Shown: positions 17,030 through 26,663 of the stretch, piece after piece
Numbering within the stretch: position 1 is the stretch's first letter
Layout of the letters: each line of letters starts with the position of its first letter
Assembly (NCBI GenBank): GCA_011390735.1
Contig: JAABRV010000003.1
Coordinates: 1-42,050, forward strand
Direction: 5' to 3'
Origin: Trueperaceae bacterium
GTDB taxonomy: Bacteria > Deinococcota > Deinococci > Deinococcales > Trueperaceae
DNA: 42,050 nucleotides
The notes under the pieces: generated by a model
What the model was told of the DNA's origin: nothing
The model's input: the letters and a program-made list of their open reading frames with translations, nothing else
Databases searched by the model: none
Translations under genes and position numbers: made by a program

Positions 17030-17235
17030 CCGGGCATCGCAGGCGCGGATGAGCGACTGGACGATGTCGAGCGCCCGGGCATGGCGCCGGCGCGTGCGTG
17101 GGCACGTGCGGGTTGCGGGGCGTCGTGGGCCGCCGCGGCGGGCCGGGTACGATCGCGCCAGCGCCATCATCACGAAGCCGTTCGCCACGCGCGCTCAGGC
17201 TCGCTCGCGCGCGGCGCAGGATGGGAGCCGGCAAC

Positions 17236-18696
17236 GTGAACCTACCGCTCGAACACCTGCTCGTCGGGGCCGGCGTGCTCGTCCTCCTGAGCATCGTGGC
17301 GAGCAAGGTCTCCGGGCGCATCGGGCTCCCGGCGCTCATCCTGTTCCTGCTCGTGGGCATGCTCGCCGGGTCGGAGGGCATCGGCGGGATCGAGTTCGAC
17401 GACCCGCTGCTGGCGCAGAGCCTCGGCATCGTCGCGCTGGCGTTCATCCTGTTCTCGGGCGGCCTCGACACGGAGTGGCGCGCCGTGCGGCCGATCCTGG
17501 GGCCCGGGGTGGCGCTCGCGACGGGCGGCGTCGTCCTCACGGCCGTGACCATGGGCGTGGCCAGCATGTGGGTTCTGGGCGTGCCGCTCCTGCACGGGCT
17601 CCTGCTCGGCGCGATCGTGTCCAGCACGGACGCGGCGGCGGTGTTCTCGGTGATGCGGTCGCGCGGCGTCGGGTTGAAGGAACGGCTGCGGCGGGTGCTC
17701 GAGTTGGAGTCGGGAAGCAACGATCCGATGGCGATCTTCCTCACCATCGGACTGATCGCCCTGATCGTGAACCCGTCCGCGTCGGCCGCGGGCCTCGTGC
17801 CGACGTTCCTGCAGCAGATGCTCTTCGGTGCCGCGATCGGGGTCGGCATCGGGTGGCTGGCCGTGGCCGCGATCAACCGTCTCGAACTCGGGTACGACGG
17901 CCTCTACCCCGTGCTCACGCTCGCCCTGGTGGCGGTGGTGTACGGCGTCGCCACGCTCGTCGGCGGCAACGGCTTCCTCGCCGTGTACCTCGCGGGGCTC
18001 GTCATGGGGAACCGCCATTTCATCCACAAGCGCAGCATCATGCGCTTCCACGACGGTCTCGCCTGGCTGATGCAGATCGCCATGTTCCTCACCCTCGGCC
18101 TGCTCGTGTTCCCGAGCGACCTGGTGACGATCGCGCCGGCGGGGTTCGTGCTGGCGCTGGTCCTCATCTTCGTCGCCCGGCCCCTGAGCGTGTTCGCGAC
18201 CCTGTGGTTCTCGCGGCTCACGGCGCGCGAGACCGCCCTGATCTCCTGGGTCGGTCTGCGCGGCGCGGTGCCGATCATCCTCGCCACCTACCCGCTGGTG
18301 AACGGCGTGCCGAACGCCGGGCCCCTGTTCGACGTCGTGTTCTTCATCGTGGTCCTGTCGGTGCTGCTGCAGGGGCCCACCCTGCCACGGGTCGCCAAGC
18401 TGCTCGGCGTCGACGAACCGCAAGCCGCGAAGCTGCGCTACCCACTCGAGTTCGAGCAGACGGCCGACCTCGACAGCAACCTCGTGGAAGTCGTCGTTCC
18501 ACCGGGCTCGCCGGCGGCCGGCAAGATGATCCTCGAGCTTCCCCTGCCCGACAACGTCCTCGTGGTCCTCGTCAGTCGCGAAGGCCGTTTTCTCGTGCCG
18601 CGAGGCGCCACCCATCTCGCCGATGACGACCGTCTCCTGTTGCTCGCGGACGAGTCGAGCGTGGCGCAGGTCGAGCTCCTGCTCCGGGGCCCGTGA
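17236..18696 (+). CDS. CPA1-type cation/proton antiporter (NhaP2/CvrA-like)
   Basis: The product, 486 residues from GTG 17236, has about twelve membrane spans. It carries the core motifs GLPALILFLLVGMLAGSEG, ILFSGGLDTEW, SSTDAAAVFSVM and ELESGSNDPMA, with the two acidic residues of the ion path, and GLRGAVPIILATYP. A soluble C-terminal part from about residue 410 (NLVEVVVPPGSPAAGK ... DDDRLLLLADE) is a TrkA-C/RCK-type regulatory domain. This layout is that of potassium/proton antiporters of the NhaP2/CvrA group. GTG 17236 follows GGAG at proper spacing; ATG 17221 is the alternative. Its stop overlaps the next gene (GTGA). The ion is inferred from family layout only. Confidence 0.87.
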   Translation: MNLPLEHLLVGAGVLVLLSIVASKVSGRIGLPALILFLLVGMLAGSEGIGGIEFDDPLLAQSLGIVALAFILFSGGLDTEWRAVRPILGPGVALATGGVVLTAVTMGVASMWVLGVPLLHGLLLGAIVSSTDAAAVFSVMRSRGVGLKERLRRVLELESGSNDPMAIFLTIGLIALIVNPSASAAGLVPTFLQQMLFGAAIGVGIGWLAVAAINRLELGYDGLYPVLTLALVAVVYGVATLVGGNGFLAVYLAGLVMGNRHFIHKRSIMRFHDGLAWLMQIAMFLTLGLLVFPSDLVTIAPAGFVLALVLIFVARPLSVFATLWFSRLTARETALISWVGLRGAVPIILATYPLVNGVPNAGPLFDVVFFIVVLSVLLQGPTLPRVAKLLGVDEPQAAKLRYPLEFEQTADLDSNLVEVVVPPGSPAAGKMILELPLPDNVLVVLVSREGRFLVPRGATHLADDDRLLLLADESSVAQVELLLRGP

Positions 18697-19937
18697 GGCA
18701 CGGGACATCGGCAGCGCGCGGCACCTTGCTCGAGGTGCTTGCGGTCTTCCTCCGCCTGGGGCTGACCTCCTTCGGCGGTCCCGTCGCCCACCTCGGCTAC
18801 TTCCGCGCCGAGTGCGTCGAGCGTCGCGGGTGGCTCGACGACCGCGCCTACGCCGACCTGGTGGCCCTCTGCCAGTTCCTTCCGGGTCCCGCGTCGTCGC
18901 AGGTGGGCATCGGCCTCGGCTACCGACGGGCCGGCGTACCCGGCGCCTTCGCGGCTTGGCTGGGGTTCACGCTGCCGTCCGCGCTGCTGCTCGCCGGCTT
19001 CGCGTTCGGCGTGCAGGCCATCGGCGACGTGGAGGGCGCGGCGTGGCTGCGTGGCCTGAAGATCGTGGCCGTCGCCGTCGTGGCGCACGCCGTGTGGGGC
19101 ATGGCGACGAGGCTCACGCCGGACGCGCCCAGGATCACGGTGGCGATCGCCGCCGCGATGGCGGCGCTGCTGTGGACGGGGGCCCTGGCGCAGGTGGCGA
19201 TCATCGCCGGCGGCGCTCTCCTGGGCCTCGTCTGGCTGCCCCGCCCTGGGCTCGCCTCCAGCGACCACCGGGGCGCCGCCGACGTTCCCGGCGGCGTGTC
19301 GCGTCGCACGGGCGCCATGCTGCTCGCGGCCTTCGCGTTCCTGCTGCTCGCACTGCCGATCGCCCGCGAGCTGCCGCTCGTGCGCGAGCGGACCGGGGCG
19401 CAGGCGGTGGGCGTCGCAGACGCCTTCTACCGGACGGGCGCGCTGGTGTTCGGCGGCGGCCACGTGGTGCTGCCGCTCATCCAGGCCGAAGTGGTGCGCG
19501 TCGGCTGGGTCGACGACGCCACCTTCATCGCCGGTTACGGGGCTGCGCAGGCGGTGCCGGGGCCGCTCTTCACCTTCTCGGCCTTCCTGGGCGGCTCCAT
19601 GGCGTCGGGTGCAGGCGGCGCCGGCCTGGCGGCGGTGGCGCTACTGGCGGTCTTCGCGCCGTCGTTCCTCCTGCTGCTGGGCGTGCTGCCGTTCTGGGAG
19701 TCCCTGCGGCGGCGCGTGGCCGTGCGCCGCGCACTCGTCGGTGTCAATGCCGCCGTCGTGGGCCTGCTGCTGGCGGCGCTCTACCAACCCGTGTGGACCA
19801 CCGCCGTCGCGGGGCCGCGCGACGTCGCCCTGGTGCTCGCCGCCTACCTGGCGCTGGCCGTGTGGCGCGTGCCGCCGTGGCTGGTCGTCGTCGCGGGCGG
19901 CGCGCTCACGGCGCTGCTCGGCATCCTGGGGTCGTGA
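18693..19937 (+). CDS. Chromate transporter (ChrA/CHR family), two-domain
   Basis: The 414-residue membrane protein contains two CHR domains in tandem. Domain 1 shows FLRLGLTSFGGPVAHLGYFR and LCQFLPGPASSQVGIGLGY. Domain 2 shows FYRTGALVFGGGHVVLPLI and AAQAVPGPLFTFSAFLG. The repeated FGG and QxxPGP motifs are family hallmarks. Long-chain CHR proteins export chromate in proteobacteria, but many homologs have no demonstrated chromate role. The GTG at 18693 overlaps the antiporter stop, so the two ion transporters are translationally coupled. Confidence 0.88.
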   Translation: MRHGTSAARGTLLEVLAVFLRLGLTSFGGPVAHLGYFRAECVERRGWLDDRAYADLVALCQFLPGPASSQVGIGLGYRRAGVPGAFAAWLGFTLPSALLLAGFAFGVQAIGDVEGAAWLRGLKIVAVAVVAHAVWGMATRLTPDAPRITVAIAAAMAALLWTGALAQVAIIAGGALLGLVWLPRPGLASSDHRGAADVPGGVSRRTGAMLLAAFAFLLLALPIARELPLVRERTGAQAVGVADAFYRTGALVFGGGHVVLPLIQAEVVRVGWVDDATFIAGYGAAQAVPGPLFTFSAFLGGSMASGAGGAGLAAVALLAVFAPSFLLLLGVLPFWESLRRRVAVRRALVGVNAAVVGLLLAALYQPVWTTAVAGPRDVALVLAAYLALAVWRVPPWLVVVAGGALTALLGILGS

Positions 19938-21228: not shown

Positions 21229-22538
21229 ACGCGAAGACCCGCGACACGCTCGCCGCCGCCTACCACCGCAGCCTGGCGCTGCGCTGGGCGGCGACGGTGC
21301 TGGCGATGCCCGTGCTGGTCCCGCTACTGCTGGCGCGCGGCCTCGACCTGGCGCAGGTCGCCCTGGTGATGGCCACCTTCGCCGCGGTCGCCGCCATCCT
21401 CGAGGTCCCCACGGGGGGGCTCGCCGACGCCTTCGGCCGCGTCCGCGTGACCCTCGTCGCCGACGCCTCGGCGCTCCTGGCGCACCTCGCGTTCATGCTC
21501 GCCCCAGGCCTCGGCGGGCTGCTGGCTGCCGCCGCGCTCGGGGGCGCGGCGCGGGCCCTGGGCTCCGGCGCGCTCGAGGCGTGGTACGTCGATGCCCGCC
21601 GCGCGCGCGACCCGGACGGCGACCTGCAGGGGCCGCTCGCCCGCGCGGGCACGATCCAGTCGCTCGTGCTCGCGGGCGGCACGCTCGTGGGCGGCGCGCT
21701 GCCGCTCGCCGCGCCGCTCCTCGGCATCGCGGCGCCCGGCGAGGTCGGTGCGCTGCAGCTCGCGTTCGCGGCCTCGGTGGCGCTGGGGTTCGTGTCGCTC
21801 GCGGTCACCTCGCGCCTGCCGGAGGCGCGGGACACCGCGCCCGAGGCGAGGCGCGCCGCCCGCCGCGCCGCGCGCCCCGATCGCGTCGCCCGCGTGGCCG
21901 TCGGCGCCCTCGTGCGCGACCCGGCGCTCGCGCCGCTGCTCGCGATCGGCGTCGCGTTCGGCGCCATCGTCATGAGCTTCGAGGCGTTCCTCCCGGCCGA
22001 GCTCCGCCTGCGTTGGGGGCCGGAGGGCGTGAGCATGGTGCTGGGCGCGGTGATGACCGTCGCGTTCGGCGCGACGGCGGCCGGGCAGGCACTGGCGGCC
22101 CGCTTCGCCTCGGCGACGTCACGTCCGCCACTCACTCGGGTGGCGCAGGGGGCGCTCGTCATCGCGGTCGCTGGGGCCCTCATCGCCCTCGACCTGGCAG
22201 GCTCGGGCGGTCCGATCGCCGCCACTGCCCTCGCCGCCGCCGGCGCCTGGCTCGCCTACCTCGGCCTCGGGTTCGCGGGACCCGCGCTGGGCGCCGCGTT
22301 CCACGCCCGCGTGGCGAGCACCGAGCGGGCGACGATGCTGTCGGTGAACTCGCTGGCGGCGTACCTGGGCGGCGTCGTGGCGACGCTCGCCCTCGGCGCG
22401 GCCGCCGAGGCGTCGGGTCTCGCGGTGGTGTGGATCGTGGTGGCCGCGCTGGGCGGCGGGGTCATCGTCGTGGCGCTCGCCTGGCGGGCGCGGCGTGACG
22501 CTCCGCGAGCGGCGCCGGTGGCGTCCGAGGCGCGCTAG
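21225..22538 (+). CDS. Major facilitator superfamily transporter
   Basis: The 437-residue protein has about twelve hydrophobic segments. The cytoplasmic loop between spans 2 and 3 carries EVPTGGLADAFGRVRV, the MFS motif A (G-x-x-x-D-x-x-G-R). A charged central loop rich in Arg (about residues 200-225) separates the two six-span halves. It resembles drug-exporter-like MFS proteins, with unknown substrate. It starts four bases into the stop of a small upstream gene and is divergent from an HTH regulator. Its stop codon shares a CTAG with the stop of the convergent blh gene. Confidence 0.85.
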   Translation: MNAKTRDTLAAAYHRSLALRWAATVLAMPVLVPLLLARGLDLAQVALVMATFAAVAAILEVPTGGLADAFGRVRVTLVADASALLAHLAFMLAPGLGGLLAAAALGGAARALGSGALEAWYVDARRARDPDGDLQGPLARAGTIQSLVLAGGTLVGGALPLAAPLLGIAAPGEVGALQLAFAASVALGFVSLAVTSRLPEARDTAPEARRAARRAARPDRVARVAVGALVRDPALAPLLAIGVAFGAIVMSFEAFLPAELRLRWGPEGVSMVLGAVMTVAFGATAAGQALAARFASATSRPPLTRVAQGALVIAVAGALIALDLAGSGGPIAATALAAAGAWLAYLGLGFAGPALGAAFHARVASTERATMLSVNSLAAYLGGVVATLALGAAAEASGLAVVWIVVAALGGGVIVVALAWRARRDAPRAAPVASEAR

Positions 22539-23632
22539 CCCGGCCCGGCGTCCATCCACGCGACGACGGCCAGGTGCGGCATCGTCAGGGCACTGATCCA
22601 GACGAGGTAGAGGGCCACGAACCCCTCGACGCCGTCGATCCGCGGGCCCGACCAGGCGGTGAGCGCCACGAGGAAGGCCAGGGCGATCAGCGTGGTCGGG
22701 ATCAGGTCACGCGTGAGCCGCAGCACGGGACCGCGCAGGTCGCCCTCCGCGACGGCGCGGGCCTCGGCGTCGGGCAGCAGCAGCAGGCGCGCGAGGTGGC
22801 GGAGCGAGTGCCACGCGAGGAAATAGGCGCCGATGGCGAGGTAGGCGGGCACCCAGGTGAACAGCACCGCGAGCAGAAACAGCTCGGCGACGTCCATGAA
22901 GCGGCCCCGCCACCCGTGCCAGGCCCGACCCAGCCCGAACAGGTAGGTGGCGAACAGCGCGAACAGGGCGATGCCCAGTCCCCAGATGACGAGCGGCGCG
23001 CGAAGGTCGAGGCCGCCACCGGCGGCTGCGCCCGTGGCGACGGCCGCCGTCGCGAACAGGGCCTCGGCCACGTCGGGCTGCGCGAGCACGGGGACGGTGA
23101 CGGGCAGGGCGCCCCGCAACAGGATCGCGGCGGCGTGACCGAGGCGACCGGCACGGCGGCGTCCGAAGAAGCGCTCGAGAAAGTCGACGTCGCCCTGGCC
23201 CCAGTGCAGGACCGTCGCGACGAGGAAGCCGACGAACGCCGCCGCCGGCGCCACCGTCCACAGCCAGAGGAAGGCAGCGGCGAGCCCGGCGTAACCGGCG
23301 AGGAACAGGGCCAGCGTGGGCGGACGACGCCCCCATGCGGCCCCCATCCGCGCGGGCACGAGGTGATCGAGCGCGCCGTGCGGCAGGCCGAGGAAGACCA
23401 TGCCCAGCAGCAGCGGCACGAACGCGCCGCGCTCGGCCGCCGCCGGCGCGAGCGCCACCCAGGCGATCGCCAGCAGCGCCGAGACGCCGCCGGCGAGCGC
23501 GACGGGCGCCGCCAGTCGCGTGGCCGCGCGCGCGCGGACGCCCGGCGGCGCCGCGGCCTCCCCCCAACCGATGACGTCGGGCCCCGCCAGGTGGCGGGGC
23601 CCGAACGCCCGAGCTTGTCTCGCTGCGATCAA
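22535..23632 (-). CDS. blh: Brp/Blh-type beta-carotene 15,15'-dioxygenase
   Basis: The membrane protein (about 365 residues) has the histidine motifs of Blh/Brp enzymes: GLPHGALDHL, LHWGQGDVDF, AWHSLRHLARL and TMPHLAVVAW, spread over eight or so hydrophobic segments. These iron enzymes cleave beta-carotene into two retinals, the chromophore of the rhodopsin encoded just upstream. The most likely start is TTG 23632, which overlaps the rhodopsin stop as TTGA; no ATG or GTG is available before the conserved region. The first 45 residues are atypical and include a segment coded by a perfect hairpin, so the start remains uncertain. No carotenoid synthesis genes are in the window. Confidence 0.87.
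   Translation of the reverse strand: MIAARQARAFGPRHLAGPDVIGWGEAAAPPGVRARAATRLAAPVALAGGVSALLAIAWVALAPAAAERGAFVPLLLGMVFLGLPHGALDHLVPARMGAAWGRRPPTLALFLAGYAGLAAAFLWLWTVAPAAAFVGFLVATVLHWGQGDVDFLERFFGRRRAGRLGHAAAILLRGALPVTVPVLAQPDVAEALFATAAVATGAAAGGGLDLRAPLVIWGLGIALFALFATYLFGLGRAWHGWRGRFMDVAELFLLAVLFTWVPAYLAIGAYFLAWHSLRHLARLLLLPDAEARAVAEGDLRGPVLRLTRDLIPTTLIALAFLVALTAWSGPRIDGVEGFVALYLVWISALTMPHLAVVAWMDAGPG
23579..23602 (-). terminator. Perfect 10-bp hairpin at the rhodopsin-blh junction
   Basis: Arms GGGCCCCGCC and GGCGGGGCCC flank a four-base loop, 27 bp past the rhodopsin stop on the minus strand and inside the predicted start of blh. It could terminate part of the transcripts, protect the rhodopsin mRNA 3' end, or limit blh expression. 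There is no T run. Confidence 0.5.
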
Positions 23633-24417
23633 GCCTTGGCGGCCGCGACCGCCTTGGCGTCGCTCGGCGACCAGCCGTCGGCGCGCGACTTCTCGATCGC
23701 GATCCACACGATCAGGGCGCCGAAGAAGGGCTTCGCGAGGATGTCGGCGATCGTGTACCCCGTCTGGATCGCGACGACCGCGCCGGCCCCGTCGAAGCCG
23801 AGGACGGGCGCCAGGTACGCGATCGGGTACACGCCCCAGGTCGCCAGCAGCAGCAGGCGCAGGTTGCGCACCAGGACGCGCACCTTCTCAGGCTGCGCCG
23901 CGAGCGAGCGACCGAGTTCGACCCACAGGACGTAGAGGATGTAGATGAACGGGATCGTGCTGATCGTGCCCCACAGCAAGCGGGTGGCCGTGTCGGAGGA
24001 CACCTCGCCGGGGTAGCCGGTGACGATCATGAGGACGGCGGCGGCCGACAGGCGCGCGATCATCCCGCCCGCCCCCTGCTTGAGCCGCAGCACGAGCACG
24101 GCCTCGGTCAGGAGCAGCGGCACGGTGAGCAACCAGTCGACGTAGCGGTACGCGTCGTTGAAGGGCACGCCGGAGGGCACGTACATGCCGCCCTCCAGGA
24201 CGTAGGAGGCCGCCCAGCCCTCGAAGATGCGCAGGTAGTGGTAGAAGGCGATGGCCACGACCAGGGCCGAGACCGTGAGTGCGGTCCGGTAGGCGGGCGC
24301 CACCTGACCACGCGAGAGCACGAAGTAGAGGAACCCCGCGCCCATCGCCGCGACGGCGAGGGAGAAGCCGTTGTAGACCAGTTCGAACTGGCCTGGGGTC
24401 AACACCGGAAGATCCAT
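23629..24417 (-). CDS. Proton-pumping rhodopsin, xanthorhodopsin-like
   Basis: The 262-residue protein has seven membrane helices. Helix C reads RYVDWLLTVPLLLTE: Asp94 (proton acceptor), Thr98 and Glu105 (proton donor) form the DTE motif of proteorhodopsin-type outward proton pumps. Leu102 is at the spectral tuning position where Leu goes with green absorption. His60 on helix B matches the proton-acceptor partner. Lys229 in helix G (ADILAKP) binds retinal, with Asp225 as second counterion. Helix E reads RLLWGTISTIPF. Its Gly150 falls where bacteriorhodopsin has Trp138, the change that makes room for a carotenoid antenna in xanthorhodopsin. ATG 24417 follows GGAGGTG. Retinal supply is by the overlapping blh gene. 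Confidence 0.93.
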   Translation of the reverse strand: MDLPVLTPGQFELVYNGFSLAVAAMGAGFLYFVLSRGQVAPAYRTALTVSALVVAIAFYHYLRIFEGWAASYVLEGGMYVPSGVPFNDAYRYVDWLLTVPLLLTEAVLVLRLKQGAGGMIARLSAAAVLMIVTGYPGEVSSDTATRLLWGTISTIPFIYILYVLWVELGRSLAAQPEKVRVLVRNLRLLLLATWGVYPIAYLAPVLGFDGAGAVVAIQTGYTIADILAKPFFGALIVWIAIEKSRADGWSPSDAKAVAAAKA

Positions 24418-24632: not shown

Positions 24633-26663
24633 ATGCGTTCGGCTTCATCTCCTATCGAGACCCGCGGCCCCGCCGCGGGCTGGACGCTCGTGCTCGGCGA
24701 CGCCGTGGTCCTGCGGCCGCCGACCGGCGACGTGGTGTACCCCGGACGCAAGACGGCCGCCGTGCTGGCGTGGCTGGCGCTGGCCGGCCCGACCCCGCGC
24801 GAACGCCTCGCCGACCTGCTGTGGCCCACGGCGAAGGACCCGCGCAACAGCCTGCGCTACGAGCTTCACGTGCTGCGGCGCCAGGCGCCGGTCCTGACGA
24901 GCGGCGATCCGTTGGCGCTGGCGGATGGCCTGGGGATCGCGCGCGGCGAGGGCGAACTGCTGGCGTCGTTCGACTACTCCGATCTGCCCGAGTTCGACGA
25001 ATGGCTGCTGTTTCAGCGAGAGCGCCGGCGCGAGGACCTCCTGGAGGAGCTCGAGGAGCGCACGGCCTCGCTCGAGCGCGACGGACGCCCCGGCGAGGCG
25101 CTCGAAGCCGCGCGCCAGGCGCTCTCGCTCGACCCCCTGTCGGAGGCCGCCTGCCGCCGGCTGATGCGCCTGGCGTACCTCACGGGCGACCGGGCCGGCG
25201 CGCTGGACGTCTTCCGGCGCTTCGAGGAGCGCCTCGCGCGCGAGCTGGGGGTGCGACCGCTGCCCGAGACGGCGGCGCTGGCGCGTGACATCGCCCGCGC
25301 CGCGGTCGACCGCGCCACCGACGTCCGCCGGGCGATCCCGGTCGCCGTCGACCGCCCCCCGCTGCTGGCGGGACGCGAGCGCGAATGGGCGCGCATGGAG
25401 GAGGCCTGGACCCACGGCCAGGTGATCTACCTCTCCGGGCCGCCCGGCGTCGGCAAGACCCGGTTGATGCACGAGTTCGCGGCCTCGAAGGTGCCGAGGC
25501 AGCGCTGGAACGTGTTCACCGCGCGACCCGGCGACATGACCGCGCCGTACGCGAGCCAGGCCCGCGCCTTCCGCGCGGTGCTCGACGGCTGCCCGGGCAT
25601 CGAGCTGACGCCGGTGATGCGCCGCGAGCTCTCCCGACTGCTGCCCGACCTCGCTGACGAGACGCCGCCCCCGATGGCGACGCTGGCCGAGAAGAACTAC
25701 TTCTACGCCACCCTCGCGGAGGTCCTCATCCGCAGCGGCGCGTGGCTCGACTGTTGGGTCGCCGACGACTGGCAGTTCATCGATCCCCCGAGCCTCGAGA
25801 TGGCGAACTACATGTTCGCCAACGTGACCCCGGTAGCGACGGAGCGCAAGGGTCAACGCGCGATCTGCACCTTCCGCACCGCCGAGGTGGGCGACGCGTT
25901 CCACGCCTTCTTGGCGGACCTGGTGCGCGGTGGCATCGCCATCCACATCGAGCTGCCGCCGCTCGACGCGCCGGCCGTCGGCAGGCTGCTGGCGTCCACC
26001 GAGGTCGCGGGCGCCGCGGGGCTCGCCGAGCCGATGCACCGCTTCACCGGCGGCAACCCGCTCTTCGTGGTCGAGACGCTCAAGAGCCTGCTCGAGTCCG
26101 AGGAGGGCGCGCTCGACGCGGCCTCGCTCCGCGACCTCTGGCCCGAGCGCGTCGCCCAGGTGTTCGAGGAGCGCTTCCGGCGCCTCGACGCGCGCGAGCT
26201 CCTCCTCCTGAGGCTGCTGGCCATCGCACAGACGGACGCCACGCCGCGGCTGGCGGCGGCCGCCCTCGAGATGGACGAGGCCCGCGTGGCGACCACCCAG
26301 GCCGCCCTGGAGCGGGCACGCCTGCTCGACGGCCTGGCGTTCAGCCACGACCTCGTGTACGAGGCGGCGTCCCGCGCGACGCCGCCCGCCGTGCGCACGC
26401 ACCTGCACCGTAGCGTCGCGGCGGCGCTCGGCCAGCTCGACGGCCCGGCCGCGCGCATCGCCTACCACCACGAGCAGGCGGGCGACCTCGAGCGCGCGCT
26501 CCCGCACTACCTGGACGCCGCCGAGGAAGCCCTGGTGCGCGGCGCCTTCGCCGCAGCGGCGGATTGGTTCGCGCGCGTCCGCGACCACGACGCGGACCCC
26601 AGGCGCGCGGAACGGGCGCGGCGGGCGCTGGAGGCGGTCGCGCCGCTGGTCGAAAGCGGCTGA
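24633..26663 (+). CDS. BTAD-domain AAA ATPase transcriptional regulator
   Basis: The 676-residue protein starts with a winged-helix-like region (about residues 15-95: LGDAVVLRPPTGDVVYPGRKTAAVLAWLAL, RNSLRYELHVLRR). A bacterial transcriptional activation domain follows at about 118-215 (FDEWLLFQRERRREDLLEELEER ... RFEERLARELGVRPLPET). A STAND-type ATPase comes next, with Walker A GPPGVGKT at 269-276, a Walker-B-like CWVADDWQFID and a sensor-like FTGGNPLFVVETL. The C-terminus is helical, TPR-like. These proteins (SARP/AfsR/MalT-like) activate genes when a ligand or partner triggers ATPase-driven oligomerisation. The gene is divergent from rhodopsin, with a 215-bp shared intergenic region, so rhodopsin/blh are plausible targets. 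That role is inferred from position only. Confidence 0.85.
   Translation: MRSASSPIETRGPAAGWTLVLGDAVVLRPPTGDVVYPGRKTAAVLAWLALAGPTPRERLADLLWPTAKDPRNSLRYELHVLRRQAPVLTSGDPLALADGLGIARGEGELLASFDYSDLPEFDEWLLFQRERRREDLLEELEERTASLERDGRPGEALEAARQALSLDPLSEAACRRLMRLAYLTGDRAGALDVFRRFEERLARELGVRPLPETAALARDIARAAVDRATDVRRAIPVAVDRPPLLAGREREWARMEEAWTHGQVIYLSGPPGVGKTRLMHEFAASKVPRQRWNVFTARPGDMTAPYASQARAFRAVLDGCPGIELTPVMRRELSRLLPDLADETPPPMATLAEKNYFYATLAEVLIRSGAWLDCWVADDWQFIDPPSLEMANYMFANVTPVATERKGQRAICTFRTAEVGDAFHAFLADLVRGGIAIHIELPPLDAPAVGRLLASTEVAGAAGLAEPMHRFTGGNPLFVVETLKSLLESEEGALDAASLRDLWPERVAQVFEERFRRLDARELLLLRLLAIAQTDATPRLAAAALEMDEARVATTQAALERARLLDGLAFSHDLVYEAASRATPPAVRTHLHRSVAAALGQLDGPAARIAYHHEQAGDLERALPHYLDAAEEALVRGAFAAAADWFARVRDHDADPRRAERARRALEAVAPLVESG

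Follow-up and report, generated by a model that had tools for sequence, protein, structure and literature searches.

Can a rhodopsin from the family Trueperaceae use a carotenoid as a second, light-harvesting pigment? This question is raised by a window of 42,050 nucleotides (contig JAABRV010000003.1, positions 1 to 42,050; contig C196 in our numbering) from a Trueperaceae bacterium, whose genome assembly amounts to 2.58 Mb and is 81% complete. An earlier note on this DNA had placed a glycine of the encoded rhodopsin, Gly150, at the position of Trp138 in bacteriorhodopsin (BR) and had raised the possibility of an antenna pigment. The same note had suggested a phylogenetic placement against xanthorhodopsins and a genome search for carotenoid hydroxylases or ketolases, and had considered that another side chain blocking the fenestration would speak against the idea. 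Within the phylum, xanthorhodopsin-like genes have been reported earlier for Truepera radiovictrix (PMC3587595) and for Deinococcus marmoris (PMC5364210); no antenna claim for a Trueperaceae rhodopsin was found in the searchable literature, which covers few subscription papers.

In our opinion, the protein is a subgroup I proton pump that is supplied with retinal via blh and would carry a 4-keto carotenoid of its host as an antenna at Gly150, from which energy would pass to retinal. We give this reading a probability of about 0.6. It is built on what we established directly, namely the sequence and its homology, the phylogenetic and fold placement, the conservation of the site and the gene content. 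The most useful new point is, we think, that a single genome combines a keto-type pocket with a keto-carotenoid pathway, both of them predicted. If the reading is true, carotenoid-antenna phototrophy extends to Trueperaceae, and the pairing of predicted keto pocket and predicted keto pathway allows direct testing of a proposed rule by which two residues near the end of helix F separate keto from hydroxy carotenoids. If it is not true, the protein is one more glycine-bearing xanthorhodopsin.

The rhodopsin gene and its family

The gene for the xanthorhodopsin-type proton-pumping rhodopsin occupies 23629..24417 on the minus strand, the coordinates given in the earlier note, with its ATG at 24417, its stop codon at 23631-23629 and a product of 262 amino acids. 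We regard the open reading frame as a real gene because it matches Pfam Bac_rhodopsin (PF01036, E=2.3e-41), its dN/dS against five Trueperaceae homologues is 0.04-0.17, and GGAGGTGACC stands immediately upstream of the ATG. The dN/dS values mean that the gene is under strong purifying selection. The pump triad is complete (D94, T98, E105), the retinal lysine is K229 in the alignment, and Leu102 is invariant in the 82 homologues collected (82/82); the triad and Leu102 stand exactly where the earlier note had located them.

By sequence (phmmer), the nearest solved proteins are psXR, GR, Kin4B8 and XR, and the identity to these four structures (56-61%) is, as homology, beyond chance. The same four are the best fold matches of the AlphaFold model (pLDDT 91, pTM 0.88), with TM values of 0.89-0.92. 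The first by sequence is psXR (9wfa, 61%), which has the same glycine and slot but differs in having Ala in place of Thr151 and Phe in place of A192, and which the tree places in a cyanobacterial lineage of Pseudanabaena type; the first by fold is GR (6nwd, 60%). In the IQ-TREE phylogeny, the window rhodopsin is grouped with three other Trueperaceae proteins (support 99/94), and this group adjoins actinobacterial homologues of Ilumatobacter type (98/97) inside the XR-type set, with the deeper order unsettled. The outgroup branches are long, the placement of GPR and of the sodium-pump-like Trueperaceae rows is not to be trusted given their very long branches, and in helix E of the alignment the GPR row is shifted by a few residues. 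The tree and the fold thus answer the question of placement posed by the earlier note by locating the protein among GR, XR, psXR and Kin4B8. It is a subgroup I xanthorhodopsin, a well-formed and ordinary member.

The Trueperaceae clade departs from nearly all of the 79 other XR-type sequences at F58, T219, V237 and V205. Of these, F58, two positions before His60 of the counterion complex, stands in place of Ala, Gly or Cys, all of them small, and might affect the spectrum or a pKa. The window rhodopsin is the single one found across its own assembly. Three differing copies (L004, L005 and L013, two of them cut by contig ends) are present in the related metagenome bin S08.Bin162 (G014, ~6% contamination), which probably reflects mixed strains or species within one bin. 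In a single-contig Trueperaceae genome (L129, G036:C1:195283-196926), the rhodopsin is a partial open frame of 182 amino acids and the adjoining blh is split over two frames; the pair is either decayed or affected by sequencing errors.

The probable carotenoid slot

The codon of the fenestration glycine, Gly150, lies at 23968..23970 on the minus strand. The phmmer and MAFFT alignments of helix E bear out the gap-free match with BR Trp138 (R-x-x-W-W-A-I-S-T in BR) that had been made by eye, and they also align Gly150 with XR G156, GR G178 and Kin4B8 G153. This position is Gly in 76 of the 82 homologues in the MAFFT alignment, Ala in 4, Tyr in 1 and Phe in 1, so that the glycine is the norm of the clade and is not striking on its own. 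Nor is it sufficient for an antenna, since Octadecabacter xanthorhodopsins have the glycine and leave salinixanthin unbound (PMC3646047). The better evidence for an antenna is provided by the remainder of the slot in helices E and F and by the keto-carotenoid genes of the host, both of which lend support to the proposal of the earlier note.

The lack of binding in Octadecabacter has been ascribed by its authors to changes at T160, L194, L197, A198, G201 and I205 of XR (PMC3646047), and all six residues are identical in the window protein. A wider comparison is given by ten named salinixanthin contacts of XR, which we took from PMC3587595 and PMC3646047. The window protein retains 9 of the 10, GR 8, Kin4B8 7 and TR 6. 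GR is a proven carotenoid binder. Thermus TR (5azd) resembles the window protein in its fenestration glycine, its phylum and 51% of its sequence, but matches XR at just those six contacts, and we know of no carotenoid bound to it despite the same glycine. The sole named contact that is altered in the window protein is M211 of XR, replaced by V205; a methionine at this position (XR 211, GR 233) is, to our knowledge, not known to be essential. The named contact residues vary little over the Trueperaceae clade.

The comparison with GR leads in the same direction. Its locking motif (G178, T179, T182, F185) and aligning motif (P226, I227), which were defined by mutation (PMC9151804), are all conserved in the window protein, together with S181 and a hydrophobic Leu at the ring end. 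The differences are L188 and A192, which are Trp and Leu in GR and at which the window protein is XR-like, V205 in place of M233, and the presence of blh next to the rhodopsin gene. Compared with Salinibacter XR with salinixanthin (3ddl, 56% identity), the window protein has Thr in place of F157, lacks a three-residue insert in helix E, and has a carotenoid site that is a predicted one. Examination of the pocket positions by sequence revealed no side chain whose bulk exceeds that in each of the four XR-type structures, so the blocking residue that the earlier note had envisaged was not encountered. Judging from these residues, binding of an antenna carotenoid is likely.

The glycine and the slot might nevertheless be a mere inheritance in a proton pump of the xanthorhodopsin family whose only pigment is retinal, the keto carotenoids of the host serving just for protection from oxidation or radiation. 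The prevalence of the glycine (76/82), the glycine-bearing xanthorhodopsins without salinixanthin binding (PMC3646047), the replacement of Met211 by Val and the presence of the carotenoid cluster in rhodopsin-less Trueperaceae are all compatible with such a pump. It is less easily reconciled with the retention of nine of the ten contacts, among them every one that the known non-binder has lost, and with the small variation of the slot residues over the clade, and for this reason we consider it rather unlikely.

Carotenoid genes of the host and the probable type of antenna

A pump with a 4-keto antenna, the reading that we prefer, needs a host that makes such a carotenoid. A contig of the same genome (C184) holds a CrtO-like gene, a fusion of a lycopene-cyclase domain (of CarR type) with CruF, an acyltransferase, a family-2 glycosyltransferase for which CruG is the second-best model, and a CrtD/CrtI-like desaturase. 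The best NCBIfam model of the CrtO-like gene is NF045689 (beta-carotene ketolase), with 244-308 bits that are far under the curated cut-off of 1000, so we speak of a putative ketolase. In Deinococcus radiodurans, gamma-carotene derivatives receive a 4-keto group from CrtO (PMC11306087). For Rhodothermus marinus, a related set of genes has been put forward as the source of salinixanthin (PMC5822342). The cluster of the window's host resembles the gene sets for salinixanthin or deinoxanthin. Elsewhere in the genome (contig C202, L118:9871-12383), a CrtD-like desaturase gene adjoins a gene for a CarH-like B12-dependent photoreceptor/repressor, an arrangement that points to light control of part of the carotenoid pathway.

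Phytoene synthase (crtB) was not found in the host assembly, which is 81% complete. The contig ends inside crtO; crtB is the next gene at that place in three congeners and is present in all four. The absence is therefore most likely an assembly gap, and we rejected the notion of a missing carotenoid pathway. Two other candidates were also discarded: the FA_desaturase matches as CrtW or CrtR, given that the best, weak match of the full-length relative is a fatty-acid desaturase, and the amino-oxidase gene at 1444-2787 of the window, which was identified as protoporphyrinogen oxidase.

The presence of crtO is not specific to rhodopsin carriers: all 10 Trueperaceae genomes with a rhodopsin have it, as do 17 of the 29 without one (Fisher p=0.017, kinship ignored). 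Judging from these counts, production of the carotenoid probably does not depend on rhodopsin, yet the carotenoid would be available wherever rhodopsin is found.

Which carotenoid would fit the slot can be considered from two residues near the ring end. In Kin4B8, the 3-hydroxyl of the carotenoid is held by Ser208 and Tyr209, and Ser208 is needed for zeaxanthin binding, whereas XR (Met/Ala) and GR (Met/Leu), which both use 4-keto carotenoids, have other residues there (PMC12308411). The alignment assigns V205 and L206 of the window protein to these positions, a hydrophobic pattern of keto type, and the polar residues of the 3-hydroxy-binding type (Kin4B8, KR1) are absent. The pocket residues and the host genes together suggest a 4-keto carotenoid as the second pigment, and the predicted antenna is salinixanthin-like rather than zeaxanthin or lutein.

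The antenna of a two-pigment pump could also be a hydroxylated carotenoid (of the zeaxanthin, lutein or nostoxanthin type), for which Kin4B8 and Sphingomonas provide examples. Kin4B8 with zeaxanthin (8i2z, 7ytb) is 57% identical to the window protein and has the same glycine, and its Thr157, Tyr204 and Asn188 have equivalents there, the last two as Tyr201 and Asn185. Four P450 matches of unassigned function were found in the host genome, one of which could hydroxylate the ring in the manner of CYP287A1 of Deinococcus, which acts at C-2 (PMC11306087); a search of the four for a carotenoid-specific match gave none. Such an antenna is difficult to combine with Val and Leu in place of the polar pair Ser208/Tyr209 of Kin4B8 (PMC12308411) and with the result of the genome search suggested in the earlier note, in which a putative CrtO-type ketolase gene was present and no CrtZ-type hydroxylase (FA_hydroxylase, PF04116) appeared in five genomes of the genus. 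We think that a hydroxylated antenna is improbable here.

Proposed light harvesting

The 4-keto antenna reading can be put together as follows, where we infer pumping and energy transfer as well as the binding of a carotenoid and its identity. Retinal, supplied by the product of the adjacent blh gene, would be isomerised by light on K229; its Schiff-base proton would pass to the acceptor Asp94, and reprotonation would proceed via the donor Glu105, resulting in outward pumping. These photochemical steps are established for the family and would hold for the window protein by extension. Gly150 would open a gap between helices E and F next to the retinal ring. A 4-keto carotenoid of salinixanthin or deinoxanthin type, produced by the CrtO/CruF/glycosyltransferase/acyltransferase cluster, would seat its ring end in this gap, with the chain following helix F, and the energy of blue-green excitation would be passed to retinal. 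A more specific version, in which a protective deinoxanthin- or salinixanthin-like 4-keto carotenoid of the Deinococcota lineage doubles as antenna in a V205 pocket without the methionine that XR and GR use as a contact, has in our view an even chance of being correct.

Gene neighbourhood

The blh gene, encoding a beta-carotene 15,15'-dioxygenase for retinal synthesis, is found at 22535..23575 on the minus strand (PF15461, E=9e-54; TIGR03753, 178.6 bits against a cut-off of 95.25). Its probable GTG start at 23575, chosen by eye, is located 54 bases past the rhodopsin stop codon on the same strand, and the order of rhodopsin followed by blh is repeated in a congener (L004/L126). With a Brp/Blh-type dioxygenase gene adjoining the rhodopsin gene, retinal can be made. 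Between the two genes, ~28 bases past the rhodopsin stop codon and ahead of blh, sequence and RNA folding reveal a strong hairpin with 10-bp arms (23579..23602, minus strand). At the corresponding place, the congener also has a hairpin, though with another sequence (L004, after 6790), and two further loci also have one downstream of rhodopsin (L002, after 1906, and L003). The hairpin may terminate or attenuate transcription, giving more opsin than Blh, or may protect the mRNA.

On the other side, a large gene for a BTAD/AAA-type (SARP-like) regulator at 24633-26663 on the plus strand diverges from the rhodopsin gene across ~215 bases. A relative (L005/L127) keeps this gene in the same position, with 89% identity, beside a rhodopsin that is 99% identical, and the regulator could control the rhodopsin. 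Such a conserved neighbour might suit a light sensor, but we find this alternative to a pump hardly credible in view of the complete D/T/E triad, of closest relatives by sequence and fold that are pumps, and of the fact that no transducer or kinase gene was seen adjoining the rhodopsin. A few kilobases from the proton pump, the plus strand carries at 17098-19934 a potassium/proton antiporter gene, above its NCBIfam cut-off, with a chromate-transporter gene directly next to it.
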